In this document: positions 5,671-58,659 of the stretch, in pieces
Layout: the number at the start of each line of letters is the position of its first letter
How positions within the stretch are numbered: the stretch's first letter is position 1
Assembly: GCF_016907695.1 (NCBI RefSeq)
Contig: NZ_JAFBCK010000001.1
Coordinates: 6,994,001 to 7,058,000 of the forward strand
Length of the DNA stretch: 64,000 nucleotides
Origin: Actinokineospora baliensis
Lineage (GTDB): Bacteria; Actinomycetota; Actinomycetes; Mycobacteriales; Pseudonocardiaceae
Reading direction: 5' to 3'
Made by a program: the position numbers and the translations under genes
Notes under the pieces: model-generated
Databases searched by the model: none
Seen by the model: only the letters and a program-made list of their open reading frames with translations
What the model was told of the DNA's origin: nothing

Positions 5671-5675
5671 CGGGG

Positions 5676-16220: not shown

Positions 16221-21056
<4,836 letters not shown>

Positions 21057-21057
21057 G

Positions 21058-32207
<11,150 letters not shown>

Positions 32208-41787: not shown

Positions 41788-44697
41788 ATGGAATCGGAGG
41801 GGCGGTCGCCGACGTTTCGGGTGCTGGGGCCGCTGGAGGCGCAGGTCGGGGAGTCGTTCCGGCTCTCGCCGGGGCGCCAGCAGATCGTGTTGACGATGCT
41901 GCTGCTCGAGGCCAACCGGGTGGTGGGCACCAACCGGCTGATCGAGGCCATCTGGGACGGGGCGCCGCCCGCCACCGCCAGGGTGCAGGTGCAGATCTGC
42001 GTGTCCGCGCTGCGCAACATCCTGCGCGAGTCCGGGTGGGCCGACGCGCTGGTGACCAGGGCGCCGGGGTACCTGCTGCGGGTCCCCGACGACGAGCTCG
42101 ACGCGCGGTTGTTCGCCAGGTTGACCGCTGACGCCGACGTGCTGGCCGCGCAGGGCAACCTCAAGGAGGCCACGCGGGTGCTGCGCGAGGCCATCGGGCT
42201 CTGGCGGGGTCCGGCGCTCGACGGCATCCACAGCAGGCTGGTGCGGGCGCGCGCCGCGCAGCTCGACGAGAGCCTGCTGCTGGCCAGGGAGACCTCGTTC
42301 GACCTGGCCTTCCGGGTTGGCGACCACCACACCACGATCGGCGACATCGCCGCGCTGCTGCAGGAACACCCGCTGCGGGAGCGGCTGCGCGGGCAGTACA
42401 TGCTGGCGCTCTACCGCTCCGGCAGGCGCGCGGAAGCGCTGGAGGCCTACCGGGTCGGCCGGGAGCTGATGATCGAGGAGCTCGGCATCGAGCCGGGCGC
42501 GGAGCTGCGCGAACTGGAATCGGCGATGCTCTCCGACGCCCACCAGCTGCTCACCCCGAGGTCCGCGGCGACCCGCGCCGAACCCGAGGTCACCCCCGTG
42601 CCCCGGCAGCTGCCCGCCGACATCGCCGACTTCACCGGGCACGCCGACCTGGTCGCCAGGGTGCGCTACCTGCTGGTCGGCCGCGACACCCGGCGCGCGG
42701 CGAAAGTGGTGGTGCTGACCGGGAAACCGGGTGTGGGCAAGAGCACGCTCGGCGTGCACGTGGCGCACGCGCTCGGCGAGACGGACTTCCCCGACGGGCA
42801 GCTGTACTGCCAGCTCGGCGGCACCGGGCCAGCCCCGGCCGACCCGGCCGACGTGCTCGGTCGGTTCCTGCGCGCGCTGGGGGTGCCGGTCGAGGGGATC
42901 CCGGAGACCCTCGGTGAGCGGGCCACCCTGTTCCGGCACCTGCTTGCCGACTCCCGGTCGCTGATCGTGCTCGACGACGCCGCGTCGGAGTCGCAGGTCC
43001 GGCACCTGCTGCCGGGCAGCGGCAACTGCGCGGTGGTGGTGACCAGCCGCGTGCGGCTCACCGGTCTGGCCGGTGCCAAGGTGCTCGAGGTCGACGTGCT
43101 CGCCCCCGCGCAGGCCGTGCGGATGCTCGTGCAGGTGGTCGGGCAGGAGCGGGTCGCGGCCGAACCCGCCGCCGCGGACGCGCTGGTGCGGTTGGTCGAC
43201 CGATTACCGTTGGCGCTGCGCATCATCTCGGCGCGGCTCGCGGCGCGGCCGACGCTGACCCTGTCGTGGATGCTGGAACGGCTCTCCGACGAACAGCGCA
43301 GGCTCGACGAGCTCTCGCACGGGGAGATGGTGGTGCGCGCCAGCGTCGCCCTCACCTACGACAGCCTCGACCCCCAGGCCCGCGAGCTGATGCGCCTGCT
43401 CGGTGCCCTGGCGGGCGCCACGTTCCCGGCCTGGGTGGCCGCCGCGCTGCTCGGCGTCGACCTCGACCGCGGCACCCAGTTGGTCGAGCACCTGGTCGAC
43501 ATGCAGATGATCGAGATCGCCCCGGGGGACGTGGCCTCCACGCCGCGCTACCGGTTCCACGGCCTGCTGCGGCTGTTCGCCAGGGAGCGGCTGGAGCAAG
43601 AGGGCGACGACGCGCACGCCGCGATCACCCGCGTGGTCGGCGGGTGGCTCGGGTTGGCCCGCGGCGCGCACACCTCGCTTTACGGGCGCGACAACAGCAC
43701 TGTGCTGCACGGTTCGGCCGAACGGTGGCCGCTGCCGCGCGACCTCGTCGACCGGTTGCTGGCGCGGCCGCTGTCGTGGCTGGAAGCAGAACGCGACTGC
43801 CTGTGCGGCGCGGTGGACATGGCCGTGGCCGCCGGGCTCGACGAACACGCCTGGGACCTCGCTGTGACCCTCGTCGCGCTGTTCGAGGCGCGGCTCTACC
43901 ACGACCACTGGGAACGGACCCACACCAAAGCCCTGGAAGCGGTCCGCGCCACGGGCAACCGGCGCGGCGAAGCGGCTCTGCTGTGCTCGCTGGGATCGAT
44001 GCACCTGAGCGGGCGCAAGCTCACCGAGGCGCTGTGGGTGCTGCGACCCGCACTGGCCACGTTCACCGAGCTGGACGAGGTGCACGGCATGGCCATCGCC
44101 CGGCGGAACCTGGCCCTGGTCAACCAGATGCGCGGCGAGGACGGCGCCGCGCGGCGCGGCTACGAGCGGGCCTGCGCCGAGTTCGCCACCGTCGGCGACG
44201 TCGTGGGTCAGGCGCACGTGTGGGTGCAGATCGCCGCACTCGACCTGGCCGCGGGCGACATCGGCCGCGCCGAGCAGCACCTGTTGCGCGCCTTGGCGTT
44301 GTGCCCACCGGAGGGCAGCAGGCGGGTGGAGAACCAGCTGCGGTTCCGACTCAGCGAACTGCTGATGCGCCAGGCCCGCCACCAGCACGCCGCGGAGCTG
44401 CTCAACGGGCTGCTCGACACCGTGCGGGTCAGCCGCGACCTGATGGGCCAGGTGCGGGTGCTGCACCGGCTGGGCACGGTGAACGCGGTGCTGGGCAAGC
44501 CGGAGACGGCGGCGCGGGTGCTGCGGGAGGCGCTGGACTTGGCGGCGCAGGCGGTGAACACGGTGCCGGTGGACGGGATCCGGTTGGAGTTGGCGGCGCA
44601 GTTGCGTGAGCTCGGGAGGCATGAGGAGGCGGCGCGGGTGGAGACCGAGGATTCGCAGCCTGGGCGGTTGACGATCGATCGGATCACGGCGGGCTGA
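41788..44697 (+). CDS. AfsR-type SARP activator with NB-ARC and TPR domains
   Basis: 969 residues with a GAAGGGG ribosome site. Residues about 8-95 are the OmpR-like winged helix of SARPs (FRVLGPLEAQVG, GRQQIVLTMLL, QVQICVSALRNIL); 100-245 the bacterial transcriptional activation domain; 270-560 an NB-ARC ATPase with P-loop GKPGVGKST and LIVLDDA; 600-960 TPR-like helices. Large SARPs of this plan activate antibiotic clusters in response to phosphorylation or ligand. It lies between the PKS block and the ThyX-ligase operon and is the best candidate activator of both. A TTA codon at 43204, within the NB-ARC region, predicts bldA control. Confidence 0.92.
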   Translation: MESEGRSPTFRVLGPLEAQVGESFRLSPGRQQIVLTMLLLEANRVVGTNRLIEAIWDGAPPATARVQVQICVSALRNILRESGWADALVTRAPGYLLRVPDDELDARLFARLTADADVLAAQGNLKEATRVLREAIGLWRGPALDGIHSRLVRARAAQLDESLLLARETSFDLAFRVGDHHTTIGDIAALLQEHPLRERLRGQYMLALYRSGRRAEALEAYRVGRELMIEELGIEPGAELRELESAMLSDAHQLLTPRSAATRAEPEVTPVPRQLPADIADFTGHADLVARVRYLLVGRDTRRAAKVVVLTGKPGVGKSTLGVHVAHALGETDFPDGQLYCQLGGTGPAPADPADVLGRFLRALGVPVEGIPETLGERATLFRHLLADSRSLIVLDDAASESQVRHLLPGSGNCAVVVTSRVRLTGLAGAKVLEVDVLAPAQAVRMLVQVVGQERVAAEPAAADALVRLVDRLPLALRIISARLAARPTLTLSWMLERLSDEQRRLDELSHGEMVVRASVALTYDSLDPQARELMRLLGALAGATFPAWVAAALLGVDLDRGTQLVEHLVDMQMIEIAPGDVASTPRYRFHGLLRLFARERLEQEGDDAHAAITRVVGGWLGLARGAHTSLYGRDNSTVLHGSAERWPLPRDLVDRLLARPLSWLEAERDCLCGAVDMAVAAGLDEHAWDLAVTLVALFEARLYHDHWERTHTKALEAVRATGNRRGEAALLCSLGSMHLSGRKLTEALWVLRPALATFTELDEVHGMAIARRNLALVNQMRGEDGAARRGYERACAEFATVGDVVGQAHVWVQIAALDLAAGDIGRAEQHLLRALALCPPEGSRRVENQLRFRLSELLMRQARHQHAAELLNGLLDTVRVSRDLMGQVRVLHRLGTVNAVLGKPETAARVLREALDLAAQAVNTVPVDGIRLELAAQLRELGRHEEAARVETEDSQPGRLTIDRITAG

Positions 44698-44760
44698 GGC
44701 GGGGTCGGCTCGTCGCCTGGCGGCGACCTCGCGACCCGATCCGCGATTTGAGTGAAGGCT

Positions 44761-44900
44761 CGATGTGGTGGACCTGTTTTGTGCGGGGCCCCTACGACAG
44801 CCGTGGCAGGACCGCAAAAGCCGGGGCCGAAGAGCATGGCCCTGCAGCGAGGCAAGGCTACGACTGACGTCCCCCCACGCAAAACAGGTCCACCTCATCG
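44761..44900. repeat. Inverted-repeat-bounded element, copy A (inverted)
   Basis: 140 bp bounded by 21-bp terminal inverted repeats (left CGATGTGGTGGACCTG at 44761, right 44880-44900, one mismatch). The interior is the reverse complement of copies B and C. No ORF; looks like a MITE or palindromic repetitive element. Confidence 0.75.
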
Positions 44901-45029
44901 AGCAGTTGGCACCAGCGACTTCCGGGAGCGGTGGTTGGGCTGGGTGGGTCGGCTCGGTGGGTTGGGCTGGCGGGGCTGACCCGGGGGCTGGGTTGGGTGG
45001 GCTGGCTCGGGGGGCTGGGTGCGGCGGCT

Positions 45030-45168
45030 CGATGGGGCGGACTTGTTTTGCGTAGGGTGGCGGCAGTCGTAGCGTTGTGCGCGGACAGGGCCATGCTTTT
45101 CGGCCCCAGCTTTGCGGTCCTGCCACGGCTGGTGCAGGGGCCCCGCGCAAAACAAGTTCGCCCCATCG
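45030..45168. repeat. Inverted-repeat-bounded element, copy B
   Basis: 139 bp. Left terminal repeat begins CGATGGGGCGGACTTG at 45030; right repeat ends CGCCCCATCG-type sequence at 45168, about 23 bp with one mismatch. Interior includes GACAGGGCCATGC and GGTCCTGCCACGG blocks shared with copy C. Confidence 0.78.
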
Positions 45169-45270
45169 AGCAGTTGGGGGCGGCGGCTTCCGGGAGCGAT
45201 GGCTGGGTTGGCGGGGCTGACTCGGGCGGCTGGGCTGGGCGGGCTGGCTCGGGGGCTGAGTGCGACGGCT

Positions 45271-45409
45271 CGATGGGGCGGACTTGTTTTGCGTGGGGGA
45301 GCGGCAGTCGTAGCGTTCTGCGCGGACAGGGCCATGCTCTTCGGCCCCAGCTTTGCGGTCCTGCCACGGGTAGCGCAGGGGCCCCGCGCAAAACAAGTTC
45401 GCCCCATCG
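45271..45409. repeat. Inverted-repeat-bounded element, copy C
   Basis: 139 bp, same orientation and nearly the same sequence as copy B. Three copies within 650 bp, one inverted, separated by repetitive GC tracts. Confidence 0.78.
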
Positions 45410-45827
45410 AGCATTAGAGGCAGCGGCCTCCGAGAGCAGCGGTGAGGCAGGCAGGGCCGGCCCGGGCGGCGGGGCTGGGCGGGCCGGCTCGGTGGGGTGG
45501 GTGGGCACCGGCGGCTTCTGGGGACGTGGGTGGAACTCATGACCGGGCTTCGCCACCGGGCGGTTGGTTGCCGACTGGGGTGTCTGGTGGCGGGGGCGGG
45601 AGGGTAGCGGACTCCCCACCTGGCGGGTGGGGAAATGGCGGGAAAGGGGGCCGCTGGCGCAGCGTGGTGCGCCGAAAGCGGTATTGGGGATTCCACTGTT
45701 CGCCATCTCGGGTGGTGATCGGATGACTGGGATTGTGGTACCCGGAACCCCTTCGCGATAAACACCGCGAGCTCGGTTCAGGTTTCCGGGGATTCACCCC
45801 GGCGAGGATTCCTCATGGTGGTGGTGA

Positions 45828-45860
45828 GCCCCACCGGGGACGGCAGGTCCCCGGTGGGGC
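45828..45860 (-). terminator. Strong hairpin directly after the small minus-strand gene
   Basis: Perfect 14-bp stem: GCCCCACCGGGGAC (45828-45841) with 45847-45860, five-base loop. It starts ten bases beyond the stop of the 32-codon ORF, marking an independent short transcript. Confidence 0.7.
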
Positions 45861-45870
45861 GGGCGAGCGC

Positions 45871-45969
45871 TCAGGTGCCCCACGGGGTGTCGGCCACCGC
45901 GACGGCGGCCGAAGCCCGTCCCGTCGCCAGCTCCGCGGACACGGTCGTCACGGTCTTGCGCCCCCACAT
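45871..45969 (-). CDS. Putative 32-residue peptide gene
   Basis: A minus-strand ORF of 32 codons, ATG 45969 to TGA 45871. The product begins MWGRKT, has an Ala/Val/Thr-rich middle and ends ADTPWGT. Upstream on the same strand GAGAGGAACAGG supplies a possible ribosome site, and a perfect 14-bp terminator hairpin follows the stop by ten bases. That arrangement, in an otherwise gene-free interval beside a biosynthetic operon, suggests a genuine small gene such as a peptide precursor, scaffold or regulator. No family is recognised. It has no Cys or Lys-rich core, so classic thiazole or lanthionine precursors are unlikely. Reality rests on context only. Confidence 0.4.
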   Translation of the reverse strand: MWGRKTVTTVSAELATGRASAAVAVADTPWGT

Positions 45970-46210
45970 GTTCAGTGCCTGTTCCTCTCACTGGGGATTG
46001 CCCCGGCGGCTCGGTACTCCCGCCGCTGTCGGTGATCACGGTACGGCCAGGTGATATCTCGACACTATTACCCGGGGCACCTACGGCGATGCCTCCGCGA
46101 TAACCGCGGAATAGCCCAACCGGGTTGACTTGGTTTCACCGGCCACCGAGCGCGCCCTATCGCCGGGCGACGAGGCCGGAAAGTGACTATCACACAAATT
46201 GGGGGTTTGG

Positions 46211-46489
46211 GTGATCTCTGTCGAGCAGTCCGAATCGACCGCGCTCGGCCTGCTGCGCGACGCGCGGCAGGCCGTGCTGGCGGGCGGGTCCGAGCAGGAG
46301 TGGCTGACCGCGACGGCGGTGCACCTCATCGAGTGCGCCATCGAGGCGGTCTCGCTGCTGCCGGAACCGGGCGTCGACGCCGCCAGGGCCGCCCTGGGCA
46401 GTGCCAGGGCCGCCGTCGTCACCGCCACCTACGCCGTGCAGGGCATCGACGGCGACATCCGCCACGCCTTGGCCGCCAGCCGCGGCTGA
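46211..46489 (+). CDS. Small protein of unknown function
   Basis: 92 residues from GTG 46211 (a TTG at 46199 is in frame, but GGGGG at 46201-46205 fits the GTG). The product is predicted all-helical, with repeated Ala-rich heptad-like segments (ALGLLRDARQAVLAGG, HLIECAIEAVSLLPE, ALGSARAAVVTATYAVQG) and one cysteine. No family recognised. It opens the ThyX operon, about 100 bases upstream of thyX-like, and may be a small accessory or regulatory protein. Confidence 0.6.
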   Translation: MISVEQSESTALGLLRDARQAVLAGGSEQEWLTATAVHLIECAIEAVSLLPEPGVDAARAALGSARAAVVTATYAVQGIDGDIRHALAASRG

Positions 46490-46591
46490 CCTCCCCCGCG
46501 GACCCACCCCGATCGACCGGATCGGCCACGACCTGTCGGCGCCAGGCGCCGGGTCAGGTGCGCTGTCCACAACCAGAATGGATCACCAGTC

Positions 46592-47353
46592 GTGACCAGC
46601 CAGCTCGTCCGTCCCGAGAACCCCGCCGTCGACGCCGCGATCCCCGAGATCGAACTCCGCAGCGAGATCACCGTGCAACTGGTCGACCACCAGGCCAGCG
46701 ACCTCGGCGTGGTGCGCGCGGCCAGGGTGTCCACGGTCGGCGAGATCGCCCAGACCGAGAACAAGACCGACGGCTACGTCGAGGGCCTGATCAAGTACCT
46801 GATGAAGGCCAGGCACGGCAGCCCGTTCGAGCACAACTACCTGACGTTCCTGGTGTCGGCGCCGATCTTCACCGTGCGGCACATGATGCGCCACCGCACC
46901 TGGTCGTTCAACGAGGAGAGCGCCCGCTACCGCGAGGTGCGCCCGGTGTTCTACGTGCCGGACGCCGACCGGCTGCTGCGCCAGAAGGGCAAGCCGGGCC
47001 ACTACCAGTACGTGCCCGGCGACGAGGGTGACCACGAGCGCCTGCTCGACATCGCCAAGTCCACCTACGGCGCCGCCTACGCCGGGTACCACGAGCTGAT
47101 CGAGCGCGGCGTGGCTCGCGAGGTCGCCCGCATGGTGCTGCCCAACGCCACCTACTCCTCGCTGTACGCGACCTGCAACGCCCGCTCGCTCATGCACTTC
47201 CTGAGCCTGCGCACCCACCGCGAGGACGCGGCCTACCCGTCGCACCCGCAGCACGAGATCGCCGTGGTCGCCGAGGCGATGGAGGCCCAGTGGCGGCAGC
47301 TGATGCCGATCACGCACGCCGCGTTCGAGAACTACGGGCGCGTGAGCCCCTGA
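46592..47353 (+). CDS. thyX: Flavin-dependent thymidylate synthase (ThyX-like)
   Basis: 253 residues, GTG start. The ThyX signature RHRTWSFNEESARY (RHRx7S with NExS) is intact, and SPFEHNYLTFLVSAPIF and YATCNARSLMHFL follow the Streptomyces-type ThyX pattern. ThyX transfers a methylene from CH2-THF to dUMP C5 with FAD and NADPH. Here it is the first enzyme of an operon with a LOG phosphoribohydrolase, two oxygenases and two ATP-grasp ligases, not with folate or dapA-type housekeeping genes. In polyoxin biosynthesis the ThyX relative PolB methylates UMP at C5, so a pathway role is plausible; a drug-resistant spare synthase is the alternative. The stop overlaps the LOG start by one base. Confidence 0.9.
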   Translation: MTSQLVRPENPAVDAAIPEIELRSEITVQLVDHQASDLGVVRAARVSTVGEIAQTENKTDGYVEGLIKYLMKARHGSPFEHNYLTFLVSAPIFTVRHMMRHRTWSFNEESARYREVRPVFYVPDADRLLRQKGKPGHYQYVPGDEGDHERLLDIAKSTYGAAYAGYHELIERGVAREVARMVLPNATYSSLYATCNARSLMHFLSLRTHREDAAYPSHPQHEIAVVAEAMEAQWRQLMPITHAAFENYGRVSP

Positions 47354-47946
47354 TGCGGGTCACGGTCTACGCGGGCTCGGCGCCGGGGGACTCCCCCGTC
47401 TTCGCCGACGAGGTCGGGCGCTTCGTCGCCGAGCTCGCCGGGCGGGGCACCGAGTTCGTCTACGGCGGCGGCAGCACCGGCCTGATGGGTGTGGTGGCCG
47501 ACCGCGCGCTCGCCGAGGGCGGCAAGGTCATCGGGGTCATCCCGCGCGAGCTGGTGGACGCCGAGATCGCCCACCCCGGGCTCTCCGAGCTGCACGTGGT
47601 GCCCACCATGCACGAGCGCAAGCAACTGCTGGCCGACCTCGGCGACGCGATCGTCGCGGTGCCCGGTGGGGTCGGCACGCTCGAGGAGCTCTTCGAGGTG
47701 TGGGCCGCGCTCATCCTGGGCCACCATGGCAAACCGCTGGTGCTGCTCAACATCGACGGGTACTGGGACCCGCTGGTCGAGGTGGTCACCCGGATGGCGC
47801 AGCGGGGTTTCCTGCGCGAAGCCGAGATCGGCTCACTGGTCTCGGTGACCGACGCGGCCGGGTTCGAGGCGGCGGTGCGCGACTGGGTCCCGCCGCCGCC
47901 GCGCTGGCAGGCCCCAGACCCCACAACCACAGCAGCAACGAGGTGA
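47353..47946 (+). CDS. LOG family nucleoside 5'-monophosphate phosphoribohydrolase
   Basis: 197 residues. Rossmann-like fold with VYAGSAPGD, GGGSTGLMG and the diagnostic PGGVGTLEE motif plus an upstream HERK, the LOG/TIGR00730 pattern. LOG enzymes split the N-glycosidic bond of nucleoside monophosphates, releasing base and ribose 5-phosphate. One-base overlap with the ThyX gene suggests it acts on the ThyX product or a relative, which would free a 5-substituted pyrimidine base. Substrate identity (cytokinin-type adenine versus pyrimidine nucleotide) cannot be read from motifs. Confidence 0.88.
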   Translation: MRVTVYAGSAPGDSPVFADEVGRFVAELAGRGTEFVYGGGSTGLMGVVADRALAEGGKVIGVIPRELVDAEIAHPGLSELHVVPTMHERKQLLADLGDAIVAVPGGVGTLEELFEVWAALILGHHGKPLVLLNIDGYWDPLVEVVTRMAQRGFLREAEIGSLVSVTDAAGFEAAVRDWVPPPPRWQAPDPTTTAATR

Positions 47947-47956
47947 GGATCCCCGG

Positions 47957-48997
47957 ATGACCATTTCCGAAGCAGGCACCCGGAAGTCGCCGGTCACGCT
48001 GATCGACGGCTACGTGCCGGTCATCGACCTGACCAGCGCCCGCGAGGGCGACGCAGCGGCGCGCACCCTGGTCGCCAAGACCCTGGGCCGGGTGTGCGAG
48101 ACCAGCGGCTTCCTGGCCATCGTCGGCCACGGCGTGCCGCAGGAGCGCATCGACGAGATGTACCGGGCGACCCGGGAGTTCTTCGCGCTGGCAGACGAGT
48201 ACAAGCTCGCGCTGGTCAGCACCCCGGACGACCCGCTGATGCGCGGGTTCGGCCGCCAGGGCAGCCTGGCCGCCTCCAACTCCGACGCCTCCGTCGAGCA
48301 GGAGCGCGACCTGCCGGACCTGTCGGAGACCTACACCTACAACCGGCTCGGCGAGCCGGACGGGCCGACCCTGCCCGAGGGCTCGCACCCGCTGCTCACC
48401 ACGCCGAACCTGTGGCCGGAGCTGCCCGGGTTCAAGGAGGCCTACCGGGCCTACTACGCGAGCATGGAAGACCTGGCCACCGAGCTGATGCGGCTGTTCG
48501 CGCTGGCACTGGACCTGCCGGAGAACTGGTTCGACGACAAGGTCGACGACCACATGACGAACCTGACCGCGAACTACTACCCGGCGCAGCTGGTGCCGCC
48601 CAAGCCCGGTCAGCTGCGCAAGGGCCAGCACAGCGACTGGGGCAGCCTCACCATCCTGTACCAGGACGACGCCCCCGGCGGCCTGCAGGTGCTCGACAAG
48701 GTGGGCGAGTGGGTCGACGTGCCCGCGATCGAGGGGTCGTTCGTGGTCAACATCGGCGACCTGATGGCGATCTGGACCAACGACCGCTGGGTGAGCACCG
48801 TCCACCGTGTGGTCAACCCGGCGCCGGAGCTCGCGGCCAAGGAGCGGTTCTCGGTACCGTTCTTCCACCAGCCGAACTACGGCGCGCTGATCGAGTGCAT
48901 CCCGACCTGCACCGCTCCCGGCAACCCTCCGCGCTACTCCCCGGTCTTCTCGGGGGAGTACATCATGGAGAAGTTCCGGCGCGCCTACGGCGAGTAA
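47957..48997 (+). CDS. Isopenicillin N synthase-like 2-oxoglutarate/Fe(II) oxygenase
   Basis: 346 residues. N-terminal DIOX_N pattern (VPVIDLTSA, GFLAIVGHGVP) and double-stranded beta-helix with Fe ligands H and D in QHSDWGSLT, distal His in STVHRVV and the 2OG-binding RFSVPFF. Thymine-7-hydroxylase belongs to this family, so with ThyX and LOG upstream one attractive reading is stepwise oxidation of a thymine-like methyl group. Other IPNS-family reactions (hydroxylation, desaturation, ring closure of a peptide) remain open. Start 47957 follows GAGGTGAGGA; the upstream gene ends ten bases before. Confidence 0.9.
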   Translation: MTISEAGTRKSPVTLIDGYVPVIDLTSAREGDAAARTLVAKTLGRVCETSGFLAIVGHGVPQERIDEMYRATREFFALADEYKLALVSTPDDPLMRGFGRQGSLAASNSDASVEQERDLPDLSETYTYNRLGEPDGPTLPEGSHPLLTTPNLWPELPGFKEAYRAYYASMEDLATELMRLFALALDLPENWFDDKVDDHMTNLTANYYPAQLVPPKPGQLRKGQHSDWGSLTILYQDDAPGGLQVLDKVGEWVDVPAIEGSFVVNIGDLMAIWTNDRWVSTVHRVVNPAPELAAKERFSVPFFHQPNYGALIECIPTCTAPGNPPRYSPVFSGEYIMEKFRRAYGE

Positions 48998-49036
48998 GCC
49001 GAACGGTCCGCACCCACACCCCCTGCAAGGACTCCC

Positions 49037-50326
49037 ATGTCTGACACCACCACCGCCGGCGCGCAGCGACCCCCTTCGCGCTGGGGCTTACCCGAGGTCA
49101 AGGGCCACACCCGGTTCCTCACCGCGGGCGCCATCGACAGCCTCGGCAGCGGCCTGCTGTTCGCCTTCCAGGTCGTGTACTTCGCCAGGACGACGTCGAT
49201 GTCGTTGCTGGAGGTCGGTTTCGCGCTGACCGTGGCCCAACTGCTGGCGATACCGGCGCCGACGTTGTTCGGCCCGCTGGTCGACCGGTTCGGTCCCCGG
49301 GCGGTGGCGGCGGCGGGCAACCTGGTCGCGGGCGGCGGTTTCGCCGCGTACCTGGTGGCCGAGGAGTTCTGGCACGTGGCGGTGCTGGGGTTGATCGTGC
49401 AGGTCGGCGTGAGCGCCTACTGGACCTCCTACGGCGCCCTGGTCGCCCTGGCGTCCACAGAGGACAACCGGACCCGCTGGTTCGGTCTGATGCAGGCACT
49501 GCGCAACGCCGGTGTCGGCCTCGGCGGCGCTGTGGCCGCCGCCGTGGTCGGCATCGGCGGGGTGGCCTGGATGCACTGGCTGCTCTTGGCCAACGCGGTG
49601 TCCTACCTGTTCGCCGCGTGGTTGCTGGTCAGCTGGCGCCCGGCTGGTGCGGACTCGGCGATCGCGAAGGCCACCGAGGACAGCGAACCCGACGGCGGGG
49701 CCGAACCGGAACCGGAGAAGGCAGGCGGTTACCGGGTTGTGCTGCGCGACCAGGCCTTCATGCGGCTGGTGGCGGTGAACTTCGTGTTCGTGCTCTCGGC
49801 GATGGTGCTCAGCGTGCTGCTGGCGATCTACATCATCGAGACGCTGGCTGGCATCGTCTGGCTGGCGGGCGTGCTGCTCACGGTGAACACCGTGCTGGTG
49901 GCGACCACGCAGACGGTGATCAGCGGCTGGGTGGAGAAGCACCGGTCGTCGCGGATGATCACCCTCGCCGCGCTGCTCAACGCGGGGGCGTTCGGGCTCT
50001 TCGCCGCCGCGGGCGTGGTGCCCGGCTGGGTGGTGGTCCCGGCGCTGGTCCTGGCGATCCTGGTCTACACCCTCGCCGAGATCATCCAGTCCCCCGCGGT
50101 GAGCACGCTGTCGATCGACCTGGCGCCGCCCGCGCTGCGCGGGCGCTACCTGGCGGTGTTCCAGATGCTGTCCTGGAACGTCGGCGGCGCGCTCGCCCCC
50201 GCGCTGTTCACCACATTGCTGTCGTGGGGCCGGATCTGGCCATGGACCGTCCTGATCGTGCTGAGCCTGCTGTCCACTCTGCTGGTGCGCCAGCCGCGCC
50301 GGGCCGCCGTCCCCGCCGCGGCGTGA
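49037..50326 (+). CDS. MFS transporter
   Basis: 429 residues with about 12 hydrophobic spans and a charged central loop (EDSEPDGGAEPEPEK). First-half loop GPLVDRFGPRAVAAAGN matches MFS motif A. Embedded in the ThyX-ligase operon, so likely exports the product and gives self-resistance. Codon 18 is TTA (49088). Ribosome site AAGGA precedes ATG 49037. Confidence 0.9.
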   Translation: MSDTTTAGAQRPPSRWGLPEVKGHTRFLTAGAIDSLGSGLLFAFQVVYFARTTSMSLLEVGFALTVAQLLAIPAPTLFGPLVDRFGPRAVAAAGNLVAGGGFAAYLVAEEFWHVAVLGLIVQVGVSAYWTSYGALVALASTEDNRTRWFGLMQALRNAGVGLGGAVAAAVVGIGGVAWMHWLLLANAVSYLFAAWLLVSWRPAGADSAIAKATEDSEPDGGAEPEPEKAGGYRVVLRDQAFMRLVAVNFVFVLSAMVLSVLLAIYIIETLAGIVWLAGVLLTVNTVLVATTQTVISGWVEKHRSSRMITLAALLNAGAFGLFAAAGVVPGWVVVPALVLAILVYTLAEIIQSPAVSTLSIDLAPPALRGRYLAVFQMLSWNVGGALAPALFTTLLSWGRIWPWTVLIVLSLLSTLLVRQPRRAAVPAAA

Positions 50327-50378
50327 GCGCCGCACCCTTCATCTCCCCGCTGAAATCCCATATACACAAGAGGTCACG

Positions 50379-51617
50379 ATGACGAAGCTGCTGTTGATCG
50401 AAGCGAACGGCAACGCCGGGGAGGACCTGCTCAGGGCCGCGCAGGCGCTCGGCGTGGTGACCCACGTCGCCACGCACGCCGACCTCTACGAGAAGTACCC
50501 GCAGAGCAGCCGGGACCTGATCGCGGGCACCGTGTTCACCGACTTCAGCGACCTGGAGCTGGCGCGCAAGGAACTGGTGGCCTACGGCCGCGAGGCGGGC
50601 GTCGACGGCGTCATCACCGGGTGGGAGTTCTTCTCCGGCCTGGCCACCCTGGTCGCCGCCGACCTGGGCCTGCCCTCGCACGACCCGGCGCTGGCCGACG
50701 CCGTGCGCAACAAGCGGGCCATGGCCGAGGCGTTCGACCAGGCGGGCGCCCCGGCGCCGCGCACGGTCAGCGGCCCCGACGCCGAGGTCCTCGCCGCGCG
50801 GATCGCCGAGGCGGGCCTGGAGTTCCCGCTGGTGGTCAAGCCCGCCGAGAACGCCGGGTCGATCGGGGTGTCCATCGTGCGCGAGGCCGCCGGGCTCGCG
50901 CAGGCGGTGACCTTCGCCCAGGGCTGGCCGTTCGAGTTCCCGCACGGCACCCCGCTGGACAACTCGGTGCTGGCCCAGGAGTACGTGGGCGGCGTGGAGT
51001 TCAGCGTCGAGTCGGCCGTGGTCGACGGCGTGGTGCGCCACATCGCGGTGACCCAGAAGTTCACCACCGACAACGACAGCCGCGCGGAGCTGGGTCACAC
51101 CGTGCCCGCGGAGCTGTCCTCGGCCGACCGCGCCACCCTGCTCGCGGGCGTCGAGGCGGGCCTGTCCGCCCTCGGGTTCCGCAACGGCATCGCGCACACC
51201 GAGATCAAGCTGGTCTCCCCGGGTGTCGCGAAGATCATCGAGATCGGTGCCCGCCCGCCCGGCGACCACATCATGAAGCTGGTGCGCCTGGCGACCGGCA
51301 TCAGCGAGGCCGCCGCCTACATCGACATCGCGGTGGGCCGGGCGCCCGCGCTCGAGCCGACCGAGCAGCGCGCGGCGGCGATCCGGTTCCTCACCCCGCC
51401 CACCGCCGGGGTGTTCCGCGGCGTGAGCGGGGTGCCCGACAGCGAGCACGTCGTGGAGGCCGAGGTGTACGCCGAGCCGGGCAAGGAGATCGGCGACCCG
51501 ACCGACAACGTGGCCAGGGTCGGCTACGTCATCGTCACCGCGGGCTCGACCACCGAGGTCAACGAGCTCGCCAACGACGTGGTCGGCGCGATCACCGTCG
51601 AGGTCGAGCGCCCGTGA
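50379..51617 (+). CDS. ATP-grasp ligase 1 (L-amino acid ligase type)
   Basis: 412 residues: pre-ATP-grasp Rossmann-like domain (KLLLIEANGNAGEDLL), nucleotide-binding segment FPLVVKPAENAGSIGV with Lys, and the metal-binding C-terminal motif EIGARPPGDHI typical of L-amino acid ligases such as BacD/DdaF relatives. It forms an amide between a carboxylate (via acyl phosphate) and an amine. Four-base overlap with the second ATP-grasp gene suggests sequential amide bonds. Substrates unknown. AGAGGT ribosome site lies upstream. Confidence 0.9.
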   Translation: MTKLLLIEANGNAGEDLLRAAQALGVVTHVATHADLYEKYPQSSRDLIAGTVFTDFSDLELARKELVAYGREAGVDGVITGWEFFSGLATLVAADLGLPSHDPALADAVRNKRAMAEAFDQAGAPAPRTVSGPDAEVLAARIAEAGLEFPLVVKPAENAGSIGVSIVREAAGLAQAVTFAQGWPFEFPHGTPLDNSVLAQEYVGGVEFSVESAVVDGVVRHIAVTQKFTTDNDSRAELGHTVPAELSSADRATLLAGVEAGLSALGFRNGIAHTEIKLVSPGVAKIIEIGARPPGDHIMKLVRLATGISEAAAYIDIAVGRAPALEPTEQRAAAIRFLTPPTAGVFRGVSGVPDSEHVVEAEVYAEPGKEIGDPTDNVARVGYVIVTAGSTTEVNELANDVVGAITVEVERP

Positions 51618-52912
51618 GGAAGATCGCGTTCTTACGATCCATCGAGATCCAGCAGACGGTCCCCTTCCTCGACGCGCTCGGTGTCGCGCTGCGTGAACGG
51701 GGCCTGGTCGGCAAGTTGTTCTACACCGACGGCGAGTGCGGCCCGGACGAGTTCCCCGGCGAGTCGGAGAAGATGCCCGCCGGGGTGTCGGTGGCCGAAA
51801 CCCTGCGCAGGATCAGGGAATGGGGCGCCGACGGCGTCGTCTCACTGTCCATCCCGGACGAAAACGCACTGCGCGACGCGCTGGTGTGCGAGCAGCTCGC
51901 GGCCGAGGGCATCCCGACGGTCATGCACAGCGCGGCGGCGACCGGGCTGATGGCCAACAAGTGGGAGACCAAGCTCAAGGTCGGCGCGCACGGACTGGAC
52001 ACACCGGACGGTGTGCTGGTCGACGGCGACCTGCTCAACTCCAGGACCCTGCCGGTGCCCGCCTACCGCGAGTACCTCATCGAGCGGGCGGGCGAGCTGG
52101 GCTACCCGCTGCTGAGCAAGCCGCTGTGGGACTGCCTGGGCAACGGGATCCGCTTCCTGGCCAACCCCGGCGACCTCGACGGCTACCTCGACCAGCCCTA
52201 CGACGGCAACGTCGTGCTGGAGCGGTGCCTGGCGGGCGAGCTGTGCTCGGTGGAGGTCGTGGGCGCCGCGGGCGACTACGTGGTGCAGCCGCTGCTGTGG
52301 AAGGGCCCCACCGGTGGGGCCCCGACCTTCGCCTTCACCACGGTCCGCTACACCGCGCCGCGCGCGGAGGCCGACGAGCGCTTCGAGCCGGTGGCCGAGC
52401 GGCTCAAGCGGTTGTGCGCGGCGCTGGAGGTCACCGGCTCGGTCGAGGTCGAGATGATCTACGTCGACGGCCGGTACGAGATCATCGAGATCAACCCCCG
52501 GGTGTCCGGCTCGACCTCGCTGTCGATCGCGGCCTCGGGGCTCAACACCTACGTGGCGCTGCTGGACATCCTGTTCGGACAGTGGGGGCAGCGCCGCGGC
52601 GCGACCGCAGGCTCGGCCCAGCGGATCGCGATGCAGTTCCCCACCACCCCGCTGAGCGCGGCGGCCGACGCCGACATCAGGGCCACCCTGGCGGTGGTGC
52701 GCTCGAGCAGCTTCACCATCGACGGCACCCGCTACGCCAACATGGTGATCACGTGCGAGTACGCCGACGTGGACGCGCTCGGCGCCCACCTCGACGAGCT
52801 CAACCGGCGGCACGGGTTCCTCACCCCGCAGGTGCGCGCCGCCGTCGACGACGTGCTCGCGGGCGTGCGCGCGCCGCGGGCGACCGCGGACCCGGCGCTG
52901 GCCCAGAGCTGA
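51614..52912 (+). CDS. ATP-grasp ligase 2
   Basis: 432 residues, GTG start overlapping the previous stop (GTGA). ATP-grasp features: YPLLSKPLWDCLGNG for nucleotide binding and EIIEINPRVSGSTSLS for Mg coordination. It is only distantly similar to ligase 1, resembling carbamoyl-phosphate-synthase-type ATP-grasp proteins; polyoxin and nikkomycin pathways use such an enzyme to join an amino acid to a nucleoside (family knowledge). Codon 7 is TTA (51632). Joint action with ligase 1 would give a small dipeptide-like conjugate. Confidence 0.88.
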   Translation: MRKIAFLRSIEIQQTVPFLDALGVALRERGLVGKLFYTDGECGPDEFPGESEKMPAGVSVAETLRRIREWGADGVVSLSIPDENALRDALVCEQLAAEGIPTVMHSAAATGLMANKWETKLKVGAHGLDTPDGVLVDGDLLNSRTLPVPAYREYLIERAGELGYPLLSKPLWDCLGNGIRFLANPGDLDGYLDQPYDGNVVLERCLAGELCSVEVVGAAGDYVVQPLLWKGPTGGAPTFAFTTVRYTAPRAEADERFEPVAERLKRLCAALEVTGSVEVEMIYVDGRYEIIEINPRVSGSTSLSIAASGLNTYVALLDILFGQWGQRRGATAGSAQRIAMQFPTTPLSAAADADIRATLAVVRSSSFTIDGTRYANMVITCEYADVDALGAHLDELNRRHGFLTPQVRAAVDDVLAGVRAPRATADPALAQS

Positions 52913-52956
52913 GCCCGTCCGGAGTTACCCACCCGAATCGCGAAAGGTCTACAACG

Positions 52957-53952
52957 GTGTCACTCGACAACCCACCCCCACCCGCCCTGGCCAAGGTCCC
53001 GCCCGCCGCCCGGCTCAAGCGCGACTACGACGCCGACCAGCTGCAGGAGGACCTGCGCGTCCTGAGCGAGCACCGGTGGAGCCTGCAGCGCAGCTACGCC
53101 GACGACGGCACCATCACCGAGGCCGAGATCGACTGGCGCTGCTTGTCGCTGCGCAGCGCCGCTGGCAACCTCGAGCGGACCGACCCGGGCGGCCCCGGCC
53201 TGGTCGAGCACGAGGACACCATCTGGCGGGACAAGGCCCCGTACTTCTCCCAGCTGCTCGCCGACATCCCCGCCGAGCTGCGCGCGGTGCGGCTGCTCTC
53301 GCTGGGCCCCGGCGCCAAGAGCTGGCTGCACAACGACACCAAGTACGGGCCCGCCTGGGGCAACGCCCGGCTGCACGTGCCGGTCACCACCTGCGACGGC
53401 GCCAAGCTGTTCATGGAGGGCACCCTGCACCAGTGGCAGCCGGGCGAGTTCTGGTTCGGTGACTTCTCCCGCATGCACCAGGTGGAGAACACCGACACCG
53501 TGCCCCGGGTGCACATGGTGATCGACGCGCTGGTGTCGGAGGAGCTGCTGGAGCTGTTCCCCGACGAGTACCTCGCCGACCTCGACCGCGACGACGTGCT
53601 CATCAACAAGAAGCGCGTGCCGCTGACCGAGGACCAGCTGGGCGCGCACGCGGTGGCGTTCCCGATCCCGGTGTCCTTCCCCAGCTGGGAAGAGGAGGAC
53701 GGCGAGTTCCTGCAGCCGCAGGAGCAGGCCGAGGCCACCATCACCGTCATCGACGGCGCGCTCGTGCTCAGCGTGGCGGGCAAGCCGACCGCGAAGCTCA
53801 TCCACACCGGCGAAGGCGAGTTCCGCTTCGCTGGCTGGACCGACGAGCGCACCATCACGGTCACCCGCTCCGGTGAGAACGCCACGGTGACGCTGCGAAC
53901 CCGCGTCGGCACCACGGTCCGCGAGCTCGACATCGCGGCCACCCCGCTCTAA
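52957..53952 (+). CDS. Aspartyl/asparaginyl beta-hydroxylase-like 2OG oxygenase
   Basis: 331 residues from GTG 52957 with GAAAGG upstream. The Asp_Arg_Hydrox cupin core shows the Fe-binding HND in WLHNDTKYG, RLHVPVT, and distal MHQVENTDTVPRVHMVID with His and 2OG-binding Arg. The C-terminal 90 residues form an extra beta-rich segment not needed for catalysis in other members. Probably hydroxylates an amino acid side chain before or after ligation. Last gene of the operon, followed 20 bases later by a strong terminator. Confidence 0.88.
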   Translation: MSLDNPPPPALAKVPPAARLKRDYDADQLQEDLRVLSEHRWSLQRSYADDGTITEAEIDWRCLSLRSAAGNLERTDPGGPGLVEHEDTIWRDKAPYFSQLLADIPAELRAVRLLSLGPGAKSWLHNDTKYGPAWGNARLHVPVTTCDGAKLFMEGTLHQWQPGEFWFGDFSRMHQVENTDTVPRVHMVIDALVSEELLELFPDEYLADLDRDDVLINKKRVPLTEDQLGAHAVAFPIPVSFPSWEEEDGEFLQPQEQAEATITVIDGALVLSVAGKPTAKLIHTGEGEFRFAGWTDERTITVTRSGENATVTLRTRVGTTVRELDIAATPL

Positions 53953-53971
53953 CCGGTCCGCCGGTAGGCCA

Positions 53972-54002
53972 CGAGGCGGGCTCCCACCGGGAGCCCGCCT
54001 CG
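53972..54002 (+). terminator. Strong hairpin terminating the ThyX-ligase operon
   Basis: Perfect 14-bp stem CGAGGCGGGCTCCC (53972-53985) with 53989-54002, three-base loop. Confidence 0.85.
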
Positions 54003-54049
54003 TCCGCATGCGCAGTGCGGGCTGGCCCGCCGCGACCGCTCCGCTCACC

Positions 54050-54800
54050 CCCCGGGGCCGCACCCCAACTGAAAGCGTTGCGCCTCAAGTGCTGTTCGCC
54101 GCCACCCCCGAGTGGCTCCAACTGGGGCCGCCTCGTCCACACGCGATGGGGTCGCCGCGCTGCGACCACACCGTTCCCCGGGCCGCACCCCAACTGGAAG
54201 CGCTACGCCACAGATGCCACTCACCCCTGGTACGGCCCCCATCGGGAACCCACCCCGCCGCGCCGCGCCGCAACCACACTGCCCACCCGGGATCGCGCCC
54301 CGACTCGAAGCACTGCGCGCAAAGTGCCACTCACCCCGGGAGGCTCCATCGGAAGCCTGCCTCGTCCGTGCGGTGACCGCACTGACCGCCCGGGCCGCAC
54401 CCAGTCCGGAAGCACTGCACCACAAGTGCCACTCACCCCCCCGAAGGGCTCCCATCGGGAACCCACCCCGCCGCGCCGCGACTGCACTGCTCCCCGAGCC
54501 GCACTCCGACTGGAAACGCTGCCCCGCAAGTGCTATTTGCCGCCGCCCCCGGGATTCTCCCATCGGGCTGGCCTTGTCCGCGCGCGGTGACCGACCCGCG
54601 CCGCGACCACACTGCTTCCCCAGGGCCGCGCCCCGACTGGAAGCGCGGCGCCACCGTGCCATTCGCCTCCACTCCCGGAGTTCCCATCGGGAGCCCACCT
54701 CGTCCGCATGAGATGCCCACCCCGCCGTGCTGCGGCCACGGTGTCGAAGTAGTGTTCACCTGTGGCCCGCGCCCCGTTGGGAAGCGTTGCGCCGCAAGCG
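54050..54800. repeat. Degenerate tandem array, about seven units of 100-140 bp
   Basis: Related cores of the form GGCCGCACCCCAACTGGAAG recur near 54055, 54180, 54289, 54392, 54496, 54622 and 54763; between them GTGCCACTCACCCC and TCCCATCGGGA-like blocks repeat. Spacing varies from about 103 to 141 bp and copies are diverged, so this is an old array. Open frames through it on both strands mirror the repeats and lack ribosome sites. I see no gene between 53953 and 54828. Confidence 0.7.
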
Positions 54801-54828
54801 TTTTCCACCGCCACCCGGGGAGGCTCCC

Positions 54829-55254
54829 ATGCTCCGCATGTCCGATGATGCCTGGCGCGCCTTCGCGCTGAGCGGCACCCGCACCGGGAAGCTGGCGGTC
54901 GTGCGCAAGGACGGGACCCCGCACGTCACGCCGATCTGGTTCTTGCTCGACGGGGACGACATCGTGTTCACGACCTGGTCGGACTCGGTGAAGTACCGGG
55001 CGCTGCGGCGCACAGGGCGTTTCAGCGTGTGCGTGGACGACCAGGAGCCGCCTTACTCCTATGTCAGCCTCACCGGGACGCCCGCGTTCATCGACGACCT
55101 CGCCGTCGTGCGCGAGTGGGCGACCCGCATCGGCGCGCGCTACATGGGTCAGGACCGCGCCGAGGAGTACGGCGCCCGCAACTCCGTGCCCGGCGAGTAC
55201 CTCGTGCGCGGCCGCGTCGAGTCGGTCGTCGCCTTCACCGGCATCGCCGACTGA
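54829..55254 (+). CDS. Pyridoxamine 5'-phosphate oxidase-fold F420/flavin-dependent protein
   Basis: 141 residues with the split-barrel pattern of PPOX-class actinobacterial proteins: GKLAVVRKDGTPHVTPIWFLLDGDDIVF, then KYRALRRTGRFSVCVDD and a C-terminal RGRVESVVAF strand. Such proteins bind F420 or FMN and reduce small molecules. ATG 54829 is chosen with GGAGG eight bases upstream; the open frame before it lies in the repeat array. It stands alone between the array and a 490-bp promoter region, so its link to the neighbouring pathway is unproven. Confidence 0.8.
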   Translation: MLRMSDDAWRAFALSGTRTGKLAVVRKDGTPHVTPIWFLLDGDDIVFTTWSDSVKYRALRRTGRFSVCVDDQEPPYSYVSLTGTPAFIDDLAVVREWATRIGARYMGQDRAEEYGARNSVPGEYLVRGRVESVVAFTGIAD

Positions 55255-55742
55255 CCCGCCACGAGCCACCCCTACCGACCCCTGAATCCGACAAGGATCG
55301 GACAACTATCCTTTTCGGCGCGATGTCGAACGAATAGGGACCTCCGTCGAGTCAGGGGCGAACTAACTTGAGAAGTCAGACCACAGCGGCGGGTGATCGT
55401 TGAATATTTCGATCGTCCACCTATTCGCTTGGCGCGGATATCCGCCATTGGAGTGGGTTTTCCCAGTACAGGTCAGGTAAGGGGCACTGATTGTTCCCCG
55501 CCGGACTCCGGATGACCTTGCCTGCCGCACTAACCTCTGGTTAAGTCCCTGATGGGAACAGTCCAAGGGGGTCCGTTGCGGAGCACTGCCCACTGAAGCC
55601 ACCACCGGGCGACCACGCGCTGACGCGGGTGGGACCGGTTTCTTATTCGACACATCCAACGCTGTCCAGGGGTTCGCCATGCCCGTTGTCGGGTGCCGAC
55701 ATCGGGGCGATTCCGGCTGCCCCGGTGCGGGAAAGGGGAATG
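55255..55742. other. Promoter-containing intergenic region before the carrier-ligase operon
   Basis: About 490 bp with noticeably lower G+C than its surroundings (for example 55330-55460), typical of a regulated promoter. TGTTCCCC (55489-55496) and GGGAACA (55553-55559) form a distant inverted pair. No gene is supported. Confidence 0.45.
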
Positions 55743-56009
55743 ATGATCGACCGGAATGACGTCCTCGGTGTGGTCAACGAGTGCATGAACATGCAGTCGG
55801 ACGTGGCGTTGGACTACGACACGCCGATCATGGTGGATTCGTTCGCGCTGGTGTGGTTGCGCCACCTGTTGGAGGAGCGGCACGGGCTGGTGGTGGAGCC
55901 CGGGCGCGACGACGTCCTGGACTTCACCTCGGCCAGGGCGATCCACGAGTACCTGGCCAGGACCCACCCGGACCTGGTCGCCGAAGCGGCGGGGAGCGGG
56001 CAGCGATGA
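55743..56009 (+). CDS. Stand-alone acyl/peptidyl carrier protein
   Basis: 88 residues, helical, with a carrier-protein phosphopantetheine site DSFALVWL at the start of helix II and the loop MVDS before it. ATG 55743 is used because AAAGGGG is well spaced; ATG 55740 is adjacent. It overlaps the amine oxidase gene by four bases and lies in the same run as an AMP-ligase, so it most likely carries an amino or aryl acyl group activated by that ligase and modified by the oxidase. The consensus Gly-x-Asp-Ser is weak (VDS), common among discrete carriers. Confidence 0.8.
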   Translation: MIDRNDVLGVVNECMNMQSDVALDYDTPIMVDSFALVWLRHLLEERHGLVVEPGRDDVLDFTSARAIHEYLARTHPDLVAEAAGSGQR

Positions 56010-57430: not shown

Positions 57431-57444
57431 GGAGGACCTGGGGC

Positions 57445-58659
57445 ATGCTCAGCCCGTACCGCCGCATCTTCGCCACACCCGGGGCGGTGGCGTTCACCGC
57501 CGCCGGGTTCGTGGCCCGGCTGCCGATGGCGATGTTCAGCGTCAGCACAGTGATCATGGTGGCCACCCGCTACGACTCGTTCGCCCTGGCGGGCGCGGTG
57601 TCGGCGGCCGGGCTCGTCGCGGTGGCGGTGGGCTCGCCGTTCATCGGCAGGCTGGTGGACCGGCTGGGGCAGGCGAAGGTCGCGTTGCCCGCGACGCTGA
57701 TCTCGGCGGCTTCGTCGACGGTCACGGTCATCTGCGCGTACCACACGGCTCCTGTGTGGACGGTCTTCGTGACCTACGTGATCTCCGCGGGTGTGCCGTT
57801 CGTGAGCGCGATGGCCAGGGCGCGGTGGGCGCACGTGCTCGCCGACGACCCGGACGGGCTGCACGTGGCGAACTCGTTCGAGCGGGTGGTGGACGAGGTG
57901 TGCCTGGTCGGCGGGCCGATCCTGGCGACACTGCTGTCCACACTGGTGTTCCCGGAGGCGGGTCTGCTGGTGGCCACCGCGCTGCTGGTCGTGGGGACGG
58001 TGTTGTTCGCCGCCCAGAAGCGCACCGAGCCGCCGATCGAGCCGCACACCGCCGGGGCGAAGCCGAAGTCCCCGGTGCGGGCGCCGGGGGTCCAGGTGGT
58101 CCTGGTGACCTTCCTGGCCATCGGGGTGATCCTGGGGTCGCTGGAAGTGGTGACCATCGGGTTCGCGGATTCGTTGGGGCACAAGAGCTCCGCCGGGTTC
58201 GTGCTCGCGCTGCTGGCCGCCGGGTCGGCGATCTCCGGGATCGTGTTCGGCCTGCTGCGCCCCCAGCGCGGCGCCGCGGTCCGCTACCTCACCGGGGTCG
58301 CGGTGCTTGGCCTGGCGATGGTGCCGCTGCTGTTCGTCGACAACCTCCTGCTGCTCGGTGCTTGGCTCGCGGTGGCCGGGGTCGTGGTGTCGCCGACGAT
58401 GGTGACCAGCATGACGCTGCTGCAGGAGGTCGTGCCCGCCAAGCAGATCAACGAGGGCGTGACGCTGACCGAGTCCGCGCTCATCGTCGGCATCTCGATC
58501 GGCGCAGCGAGCGGCGGCTGGGTGGTGCAGCACATCGGCGCCGCCGAGGGGTACCGGGTGCCGGTGGTCGCCGGGCTGGTCGCGTTCGCGGTGGCACTGG
58601 TGGGCGCCAGGAAGTTGTTGTCAGCCCCGGCTTTGCAGAGCACGGGAGGTACTCGGTGA
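57445..58659 (+). CDS. MFS transporter
   Basis: 404 residues, about 12 spans, MFS motif A GRLVDRLGQAKVALP. GGAGGACC precedes ATG 57445. Sits inside the carrier-ligase operon and shares a GTGA junction with the ligase gene, so it likely exports that pathway's product. It is the third MFS gene in the window, one per biosynthetic block. Confidence 0.88.
   Translation: MLSPYRRIFATPGAVAFTAAGFVARLPMAMFSVSTVIMVATRYDSFALAGAVSAAGLVAVAVGSPFIGRLVDRLGQAKVALPATLISAASSTVTVICAYHTAPVWTVFVTYVISAGVPFVSAMARARWAHVLADDPDGLHVANSFERVVDEVCLVGGPILATLLSTLVFPEAGLLVATALLVVGTVLFAAQKRTEPPIEPHTAGAKPKSPVRAPGVQVVLVTFLAIGVILGSLEVVTIGFADSLGHKSSAGFVLALLAAGSAISGIVFGLLRPQRGAAVRYLTGVAVLGLAMVPLLFVDNLLLLGAWLAVAGVVVSPTMVTSMTLLQEVVPAKQINEGVTLTESALIVGISIGAASGGWVVQHIGAAEGYRVPVVAGLVAFAVALVGARKLLSAPALQSTGGTR

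Follow-up and report, generated by a model that had tools for sequence, protein, structure and literature searches.

A conserved ThyX, LOG, oxygenase and ATP-grasp ligase cassette in Actinokineospora baliensis with a predicted peptidyl-nucleobase product

In a 64,000-nucleotide stretch of the Actinokineospora baliensis genome, referred to here as the window, seven genes on the forward strand (46592-53952) form a cassette encoding a ThyX methylase, a LOG-family phosphoribohydrolase, an Fe/2-oxoglutarate (Fe/2OG) oxygenase, an MFS transporter, two ATP-grasp ligases (AG1 and AG2) and an aspartyl/asparaginyl hydroxylase-like protein (AspH). This cassette is real and conserved, and its product is probably a peptidyl nucleobase, in which one or more amino acids are attached to a free uracil oxidised at C5. 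The genes lie head to tail with short gaps and two start/stop overlaps, and Pfam confirmed the families of all seven. An earlier note on the same DNA had described this set as tightly packed, and each gene was found at the position it gave. When the seven proteins were scanned against NCBIfam, thyX and TIGR00730 scored above cut-off, and the oxygenase and AspH were without any match. The analysis showed directly which genes are present and conserved, the signatures of their families and active sites, and the exchange of the base-making genes for unrelated ones next to an unchanged pair of ligases.

The following route is inferred as regards the substrates, the sequence of the oxidation and hydrolysis steps, the type of bond and the product. 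A PolB-type ThyX would convert uridine monophosphate (UMP) to 5-methyl-UMP, and the Fe/2OG oxygenase would oxidise the new methyl, most simply to 5-hydroxymethyl, on either the nucleotide or the free base. LOG would hydrolyse the N-glycosidic bond and so free the base from ribose 5-phosphate. In ATP-dependent reactions, AG1 and AG2 would then attach amino acids to the base and link them with one another through ester or amide bonds, with AspH hydroxylating an amino acid in some lineages. The MFS protein would export the product, and a SARP-type regulator, where present, would control the pathway.

Conservation of the gene set and the base-making enzymes

Relatives were collected by scanning genome contigs with six ThyX peptide patterns, a scan that covers part of all relatives. 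Twelve ThyX loci were recovered, the nearest named ones being those of Actinokineospora globicatena (94%) and A. bangkokensis (87%). Genes for LOG and the oxygenase lay within 10 kb of ThyX in eight of the 12, and seven of these eight (two Actinokineospora, Saccharothrix, Kitasatospora and three Streptomyces) also kept the MFS gene together with AG1 and AG2, which argues that the genes are grouped by more than chance. In the Kitasatospora locus the gene order was shuffled and the gene set was the same.

In a sample of the class, no relative of the window oxygenase above 50% identity was found among 393 other genomes, so the cassette is rare. Oxygenases of 42-50% identity were considered as a wider context and discarded, as the five loci fetched, from four of the 11 other genomes, showed no match to the window ThyX, LOG, the MFS protein or the ligases. 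A plasmid search with ThyX returned eight records, each below 60% identity.

The methylase gene (46592-47353, + strand; PF02511, TIGR02170) encodes a predicted PolB-type UMP C5-methylase. Against solved structures, the protein scored 349.8 bits with 4P5A/4P5B, which are PolB (PMC5003785), vs. 124.5 bits with the next ThyX, and it was 67.4% identical to PolB over 236 positions. Further, Tyr99, Tyr124 and Tyr126 of PolB, as well as loops 1 and 2, are all kept. PolB methylates UMP and deoxyuridine monophosphate (dUMP), and its activity on UMP fell by more than 60% in the Y126F mutant and by 85% in the Y99F mutant (PMC5003785). The position of Tyr126 is occupied by Tyr in the window and in all eight relatives with LOG, and by Phe in all four ThyX loci without LOG, in a comparison where the third copy of the host genome (L003) was left unscored and the dapA-side copy aligned poorly. 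The methylation of a pyrimidine nucleotide at C5 that the earlier note had attributed to ThyX is therefore supported by a UMP-methylase signature. An intermediate branch is encoded by L014-L017, whose ThyX proteins share 56-59% identity with the window copy and have Phe in place of Tyr126; no LOG was found at these loci.

The host genome, a single contig of 7.68 Mb, holds two further thyX genes besides the cassette copy, which we take to lie one beside dapA-like and RNase J-like genes and the other among prophage-like genes. The prophage-side gene, the third copy, is located at G000 C1:2297140-2297712 (L003, L070). The earlier note had reasoned that, if the genome had no other thyX, this would be the housekeeping copy; given the two others, that role was rejected. 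A spare thymidylate synthase, kept for housekeeping or self-resistance, would draw on the fact that PolB itself also methylates dUMP (PMC5003785). We regard this explanation as highly improbable in view of the two other thyX genes, the UMP-type Tyr126 and the linkage to LOG.

The LOG gene (47353-47946, + strand; PF03641, TIGR00730), whose start overlaps the ThyX stop, encodes a phosphoribohydrolase predicted to release a C5-modified uracil from its nucleotide. The PGGxGT and ERK motifs are present in the window protein and its eight relatives, and the score against the cytokinin equivalog NF058542 was 131.9 bits, under the cut-off of 300. LOG-like enzymes are described as freeing a base from its nucleotide in antibiotic biosynthesis, namely PtnC in the 8-azaguanine pathway (PMC7109123) and AgmA in the angustmycin pathway (PMC8599513). 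Release of a free base, as the earlier note had proposed, is in line with the presence of LOG next to ThyX in all eight Tyr126-type relatives and with its replacement elsewhere by a DNPH1-type N-hydrolase. It is also supported by a Xan_ur_permease gene that sits at the cluster in three of the 12 loci (L009, L012 and L013), all three being among the eight relatives with LOG.

The oxygenase gene (47957-48997, + strand; PF14226 and PF03171) encodes a thymine hydroxylase-like enzyme, for which oxidation of the 5-methyl is predicted. Its best match in the PDB, and thus the nearest solved structure, was thymine dioxygenase, the Neurospora thymine-7-hydroxylase (T7H; E 3.6e-47), in agreement with the type named by the earlier note. 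Residues were compared between the window protein and 117 of 120 listed oxygenases, three outside 290-400 aa being excluded. The Fe and 2-oxoglutarate residues (H214, D216, H271, R286 and S288) were kept in all 59 closest sequences, window included, and the aromatic sandwich Phe292/Tyr217 (Phe or Trp allowed) is kept as F303 and W228 in the window oxygenase. By comparison, the T7H contacts on the N1/O2 side, Asn87, Glu122 and Arg190, are replaced by Met95, Thr127 and Thr204. These three are nearly fixed (59, 57 and 57 of the 59 closest sequences) and variable among 59 more distant ones, a pattern pointing to a pocket specialised in this oxygenase group.

In T7H, loss of Asn87 or Glu122 spared thymine and cut activity on 5-hydroxymethyluracil and 5-formyluracil, and Arg190 was critical for all substrates (PMC4787775). 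The absence of Asn87 and Glu122 would therefore fit an oxidation that stops at hydroxymethyl. Judging from the pocket, it is possible that a substrate with an N1 substituent, such as a nucleotide, would suit the oxygenase, and oxidation at the nucleotide level would match the mildiomycin order of modification followed by hydrolysis (PMC4081090). The order drawn in the earlier note, from thymine to oxidised thymine, is not supported by these results: since the N1-side residues of T7H are missing, oxidation may occur on the nucleotide. The same pocket, unlike that of T7H down to the critical Arg190, could also belong to an enzyme that acts on an amino acid or on the finished peptide, the base unit being plain thymine. 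We consider this very unlikely, given that the oxygenase is retained alongside ThyX and LOG in a locus that lacks ATP-grasp genes (L010), and that the alternative base-making set described below would yield a hydroxymethyl pyrimidine.

Ligases and a second base-making set

AG1 (50379-51617, + strand) is an ATP-grasp ligase with the L-amino-acid ligase C-terminal domain LAL_C2 (PF18603, 67 bits; PF13535, 57.8 bits), and its best PDB match was the L-amino acid ligase BL00235. Its NCBIfam matches were weak: 40.4 for BacD (cut-off 850) and 37.3 for DdaF (cut-off 840). AG2 (51614-52912, + strand; PF02655) overlaps AG1 and adjoined it in all 13 AG2 loci examined. Both of the ligases that the earlier note had called amide-forming are present. 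The MFS gene (49037-50326, + strand; PF07690), a probable exporter, was found in seven of the eight ThyX-LOG-oxygenase relatives, in the genome G201 described below, and next to AG1/AG2 in four other genomes. The seventh gene encodes AspH (52957-53952, + strand; PF05118, Asp_Arg_Hydrox), an Fe/2OG enzyme whose residues H125, D127 and H174 are invariant across five copies. The Asp/Asn-type hydroxylase claimed for the window is thus there; as it occurs in four of the eight relatives and is missing from the other four, it was rejected as a core enzyme and is treated as accessory. In L018 (Saccharothrix sp. ALI-22-I), AG2 and AspH are joined in a single open frame of 765 aa.

A search with AG2 across 298 genomes of the order gave matches in 31 of them at E <= 1e-3. 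Strong matches were confined to the host genome itself and G201 (7e-95), the rest being 1.6e-7 or weaker. In G201, MFS-AG1-AG2 follow the same order as in the window at 43-47% identity, and they are preceded by genes for a DNPH1-like nucleotide N-hydrolase (Rcl / 5-hydroxymethyl-dUMP N-hydrolase, 1.4-1.9e-27) and for a ThyA-fold protein nearest to the CMP 5-hydroxymethylase MilA (112 bits; next, 51.7). At E <= 1e-40, this hydroxymethylase occurred in one of the 298 genomes, G201 itself. MilA carries Lys133 and Ala176 as ribonucleotide determinants, and at position 186 Asp denotes cytosine and Asn uracil (PMC5175136). In G201, Apilactobacillus and five other homologues, Ala was found in register with the catalytic Cys, Lys was placed by motif by hand, and a conserved Asn lay one residue off register. 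Residue patterns were parsed in 47 of 121 hydroxymethylase sequences, 74 being left unparsed, and read K/A/N in 42 and R/S/N in five. These residues favour UMP as the substrate of the G201-type enzyme, short of proof. MilA-like loci in two other genomes (G613 and G524), considered as further examples of the cluster, were rejected as they have no ligase neighbours.

When AG2 was used in a tblastn search of plasmids, 13 Apilactobacillus kunkeei plasmids were matched. The one inspected (OX335326.1, L076) carries at 19854-26192 an operon for an ATP-grasp protein, AG1-like and AG2-like ligases, DNPH1, a ThyA-like protein and an MFS transporter, and the ThyA-like protein is 46% identical to the G201 hydroxymethylase. 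This plasmid is described as holding a polyketide set and three ATP-grasp genes, and "DNPH1", "ThyA" and "thymidylate synthase" are absent from the main text of that report (PMC9648514). Six more pairs of AG2 and hydroxymethylase homologues had equal longest-contig sizes (29,044; 4,512,352; 356,279; 115,399; 17,077; and 15,628), which suggests that each pair lies on one contig. AG2 homologues also occur in Rhizobium, Bradyrhizobium and Paenarthrobacter. A Desulfobacteraceae metagenome-assembled genome encodes a single protein (P0347) fusing a DNPH1-type domain (PF05014) to a MilA-like domain (PF00303).

The transporter, AG1 and AG2 are constant between the two sets, and the base-making genes are exchanged. 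Two unrelated enzyme sets beside one ligase pair would thus converge on free 5-hydroxymethyluracil, which is the simplest common ligase substrate: a 5-hydroxymethyl pyrimidine would come either from ThyX plus the oxygenase or from the single hydroxymethylase, and its cleavage from the sugar phosphate would fall to LOG or to the DNPH1-type enzyme. On the same grounds we tentatively propose, at slightly less than even confidence, a cross-phylum family of peptidyl nucleobases built on free 5-hydroxymethyluracil, in which these two unrelated routes supply one common ATP-grasp pair and transporter. Members of the family would be encoded in actinomycetes and on the plasmid of a honeybee symbiont.

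The earlier note had favoured an acid: three oxidations would take thymine to 5-carboxyuracil, and an amide bond would link its carboxylate to amino acids. Carboxylates are what ATP-grasp ligases usually activate, and two Fe/2OG-type proteins are encoded in the window cluster. Fungal T7H performs all three oxidations (PMC4787775), but Asn87 and Glu122, which it needs mainly for the later ones, are absent from the window oxygenase. Moreover, the neighbours of the second set revealed no oxidase, neither among the 11 proteins scanned in the G201 stretch, where one long open reading frame (ORF) is unscanned, nor among the annotated names and scanned proteins of OX335326.1, which also holds a small cupin, other polyketide-set proteins and several unscanned ORFs. 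As the hydroxymethylase-like enzyme and the N-hydrolase would go no further than hydroxymethyl and yet adjoin the same two ligases, the alcohol is the simpler substrate for ligation and the acid route is unlikely. The free-base idea is right in outline, and the carboxamide end product is its weaker part.

Several results weigh against a peptidyl nucleobase built on hydroxymethyluracil. Firstly, there is no amine or carboxylate on a hydroxymethyl group, so an ATP-grasp ligase would need to act at a different position or form an ester. Chemically, ester formation at the hydroxymethyl oxygen is plausible, and ATP-grasp enzymes such as D-Ala-D-Lac ligases do make esters. The loss of Arg190 speaks against a simple T7H, and the residues do not prove that a pyrimidine is oxidised. 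In the second set, five of the 47 parsed hydroxymethylase homologues carry deoxy-type residues, MilA-like enzymes without ATP-grasp ligases nearby occur at E <= 1e-40 in two of 394 class genomes (G613 and G524), and the Apilactobacillus ligases are only 27-31% identical to AG2 and AG1.

The remaining two points concern loci in which the halves of the cassette are parted. In L010 (Streptomyces olivoverticillatus), ThyX, LOG and the oxygenase are encoded with AMP-ligase and KAS III genes and no ATP-grasps. In four genomes of one genus (L077-L080, from the class sample of 394), AG1-AG2-MFS lie beside a divergent HemN-like radical SAM gene (family-scanned in three of the four; NCBIfam, HemN-type), and the 19-20 kb fetched showed no gene for making a base, so that the ligase pair is not tied to pyrimidines alone and serves at least one other chemistry. 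Taken together, L010 and L077-L080 could mean that the ligase peptide lacks a base and that ThyX, LOG and the oxygenase make a separate compound or detoxify a pyrimidine. We judge this to be distinctly unlikely, as both halves are kept in seven of eight relatives and two unrelated base-making sets adjoin the same ligase pair. The L010 cluster (4142-13100) also contains genes for an SDR protein and an enoyl-CoA hydratase and a putative transporter ORF, so that the base module is combined here with a different assembly line.

Extent of the cassette and its surroundings

DNA homology with L007 (A. globicatena), L008 (A. bangkokensis) and L018 spans approximately 41.7-55.26 kb of the window, with none beyond within the fetched loci. 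In these three relatives, the cassette is bounded by a SARP regulator gene (starting at 41788) and a gene for a PNPOx-like protein (ending at 55254). The earlier interval of 46592-53952 thus holds as a gene set and falls short as an extent. The SARP-type protein (41788-44697, + strand; BTAD, NB-ARC and TPR domains by Pfam) is a probable pathway regulator. It is encoded upstream of ThyX in L007, L008 and L018 at 62-88% identity; L011 has only a 34% SARP on the opposite strand, and none was found in the remaining eight of the 12 loci. The small PNPOx-like protein that ends the shared block (54829-55254, + strand; PF01243) was found in four of the eight relatives, at the matching place in L007, L008 and L018 and elsewhere in L010. 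A small ORF of 92 aa (46211-46489, + strand) belongs to no Pfam family and was found in A. globicatena only (79%, L007).

At 44750-45500 of the window lie copies of a dispersed repeat, whose core measures about 146 nt and for which 252 matches were reported genome-wide. The intergenic stretch that holds them exceeds its counterpart in A. globicatena (L007) by about 850 bases, and the cassette may thus have acquired the repeats by insertion. A degenerate tandem array with units approximately 100-127 nt apart lies between AspH and the PNPOx-like gene (54000-54800). It had no genomic match elsewhere at E <= 1e-3 (40 of 78 candidates scored) and is absent from A. globicatena, where the corresponding gap is about 35 bases.

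The neighbouring operon at 55740-62022 encodes a short protein resembling an acyl carrier protein, without a Pfam match, an FAD oxidoreductase, an MFS transporter, an AMP-ligase and a PabAB-type chorismate enzyme. It was rejected as part of the unit, being outside the block homologous to the three relatives, and looks like a different biosynthetic cluster.

Comparison with known systems

In line with the earlier note, which knew of no described pathway with this set, neither the gene set nor a 5-hydroxymethyluracil peptide was described among the literature matches listed, which mostly do not cover subscription papers. If correct, our proposal would place a new class of compounds between the peptidyl nucleosides and the antimetabolites that are free bases. 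It would also assign a role to PolB-type ThyX enzymes that are still orphans, such as the PolB homologue SVIThyX2 of S. viridochromogenes, and genome mining would gain a ligase pair that can be recognised. Because the base-making enzymes have been exchanged convergently, the intermediate can be predicted ahead of the chemistry, and the pathway is directly testable. The compound could, in that case, work as a Trojan horse by carrying in a base whose incorporation into DNA is toxic. An ecological angle comes from the related operon, since its plasmid has been proposed to aid bees in resisting disease.

Polyoxin biosynthesis shares with the cassette a PolB-type UMP methylase and the ATP-grasp coupling to amino acids. 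The cassette differs in its phosphoribohydrolase, predicted to remove the sugar, in having two ATP-grasps and in carrying the oxygenase inside the cluster. Genes that build and keep the nucleoside skeleton were not seen among the scanned genes of 41788-55254, and identity with a polyoxin cluster was rejected on this ground and because LOG is there instead. Co-expression of the polyoxin cluster with a T7H homologue gave a hydroxymethyl form (PMC5003785, citing Zhao 2010).

LOG-like release of a base within an antibiotic pathway is shared with 8-azaguanine (PtnC) and angustmycin (AgmA). Those pathways, however, concern purines, and the term "ATP-grasp" is absent from the text of PMC7109123 and PMC8599513. 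AG1 resembles bacilysin BacD and dapdiamide DdaF in its L-amino-acid ligase C-terminal domain, a weak family match far below their cut-offs, and the cassette adds the AG2 partner and a nucleobase module.

In the mildiomycin and bacimethrin pathways (MilA and MilB), a pyrimidine ribonucleotide is hydroxymethylated at C5 and its N-glycosidic bond is then hydrolysed to give a free base (PMC5175136 and PMC4081090). A MilA relative is found in G201 and Apilactobacillus, whereas the window has ThyX, the oxygenase and LOG. The relatives of MilA seem to carry a uracil-type Asn rather than a cytosine-type Asp, and the ATP-grasp pair is attached.

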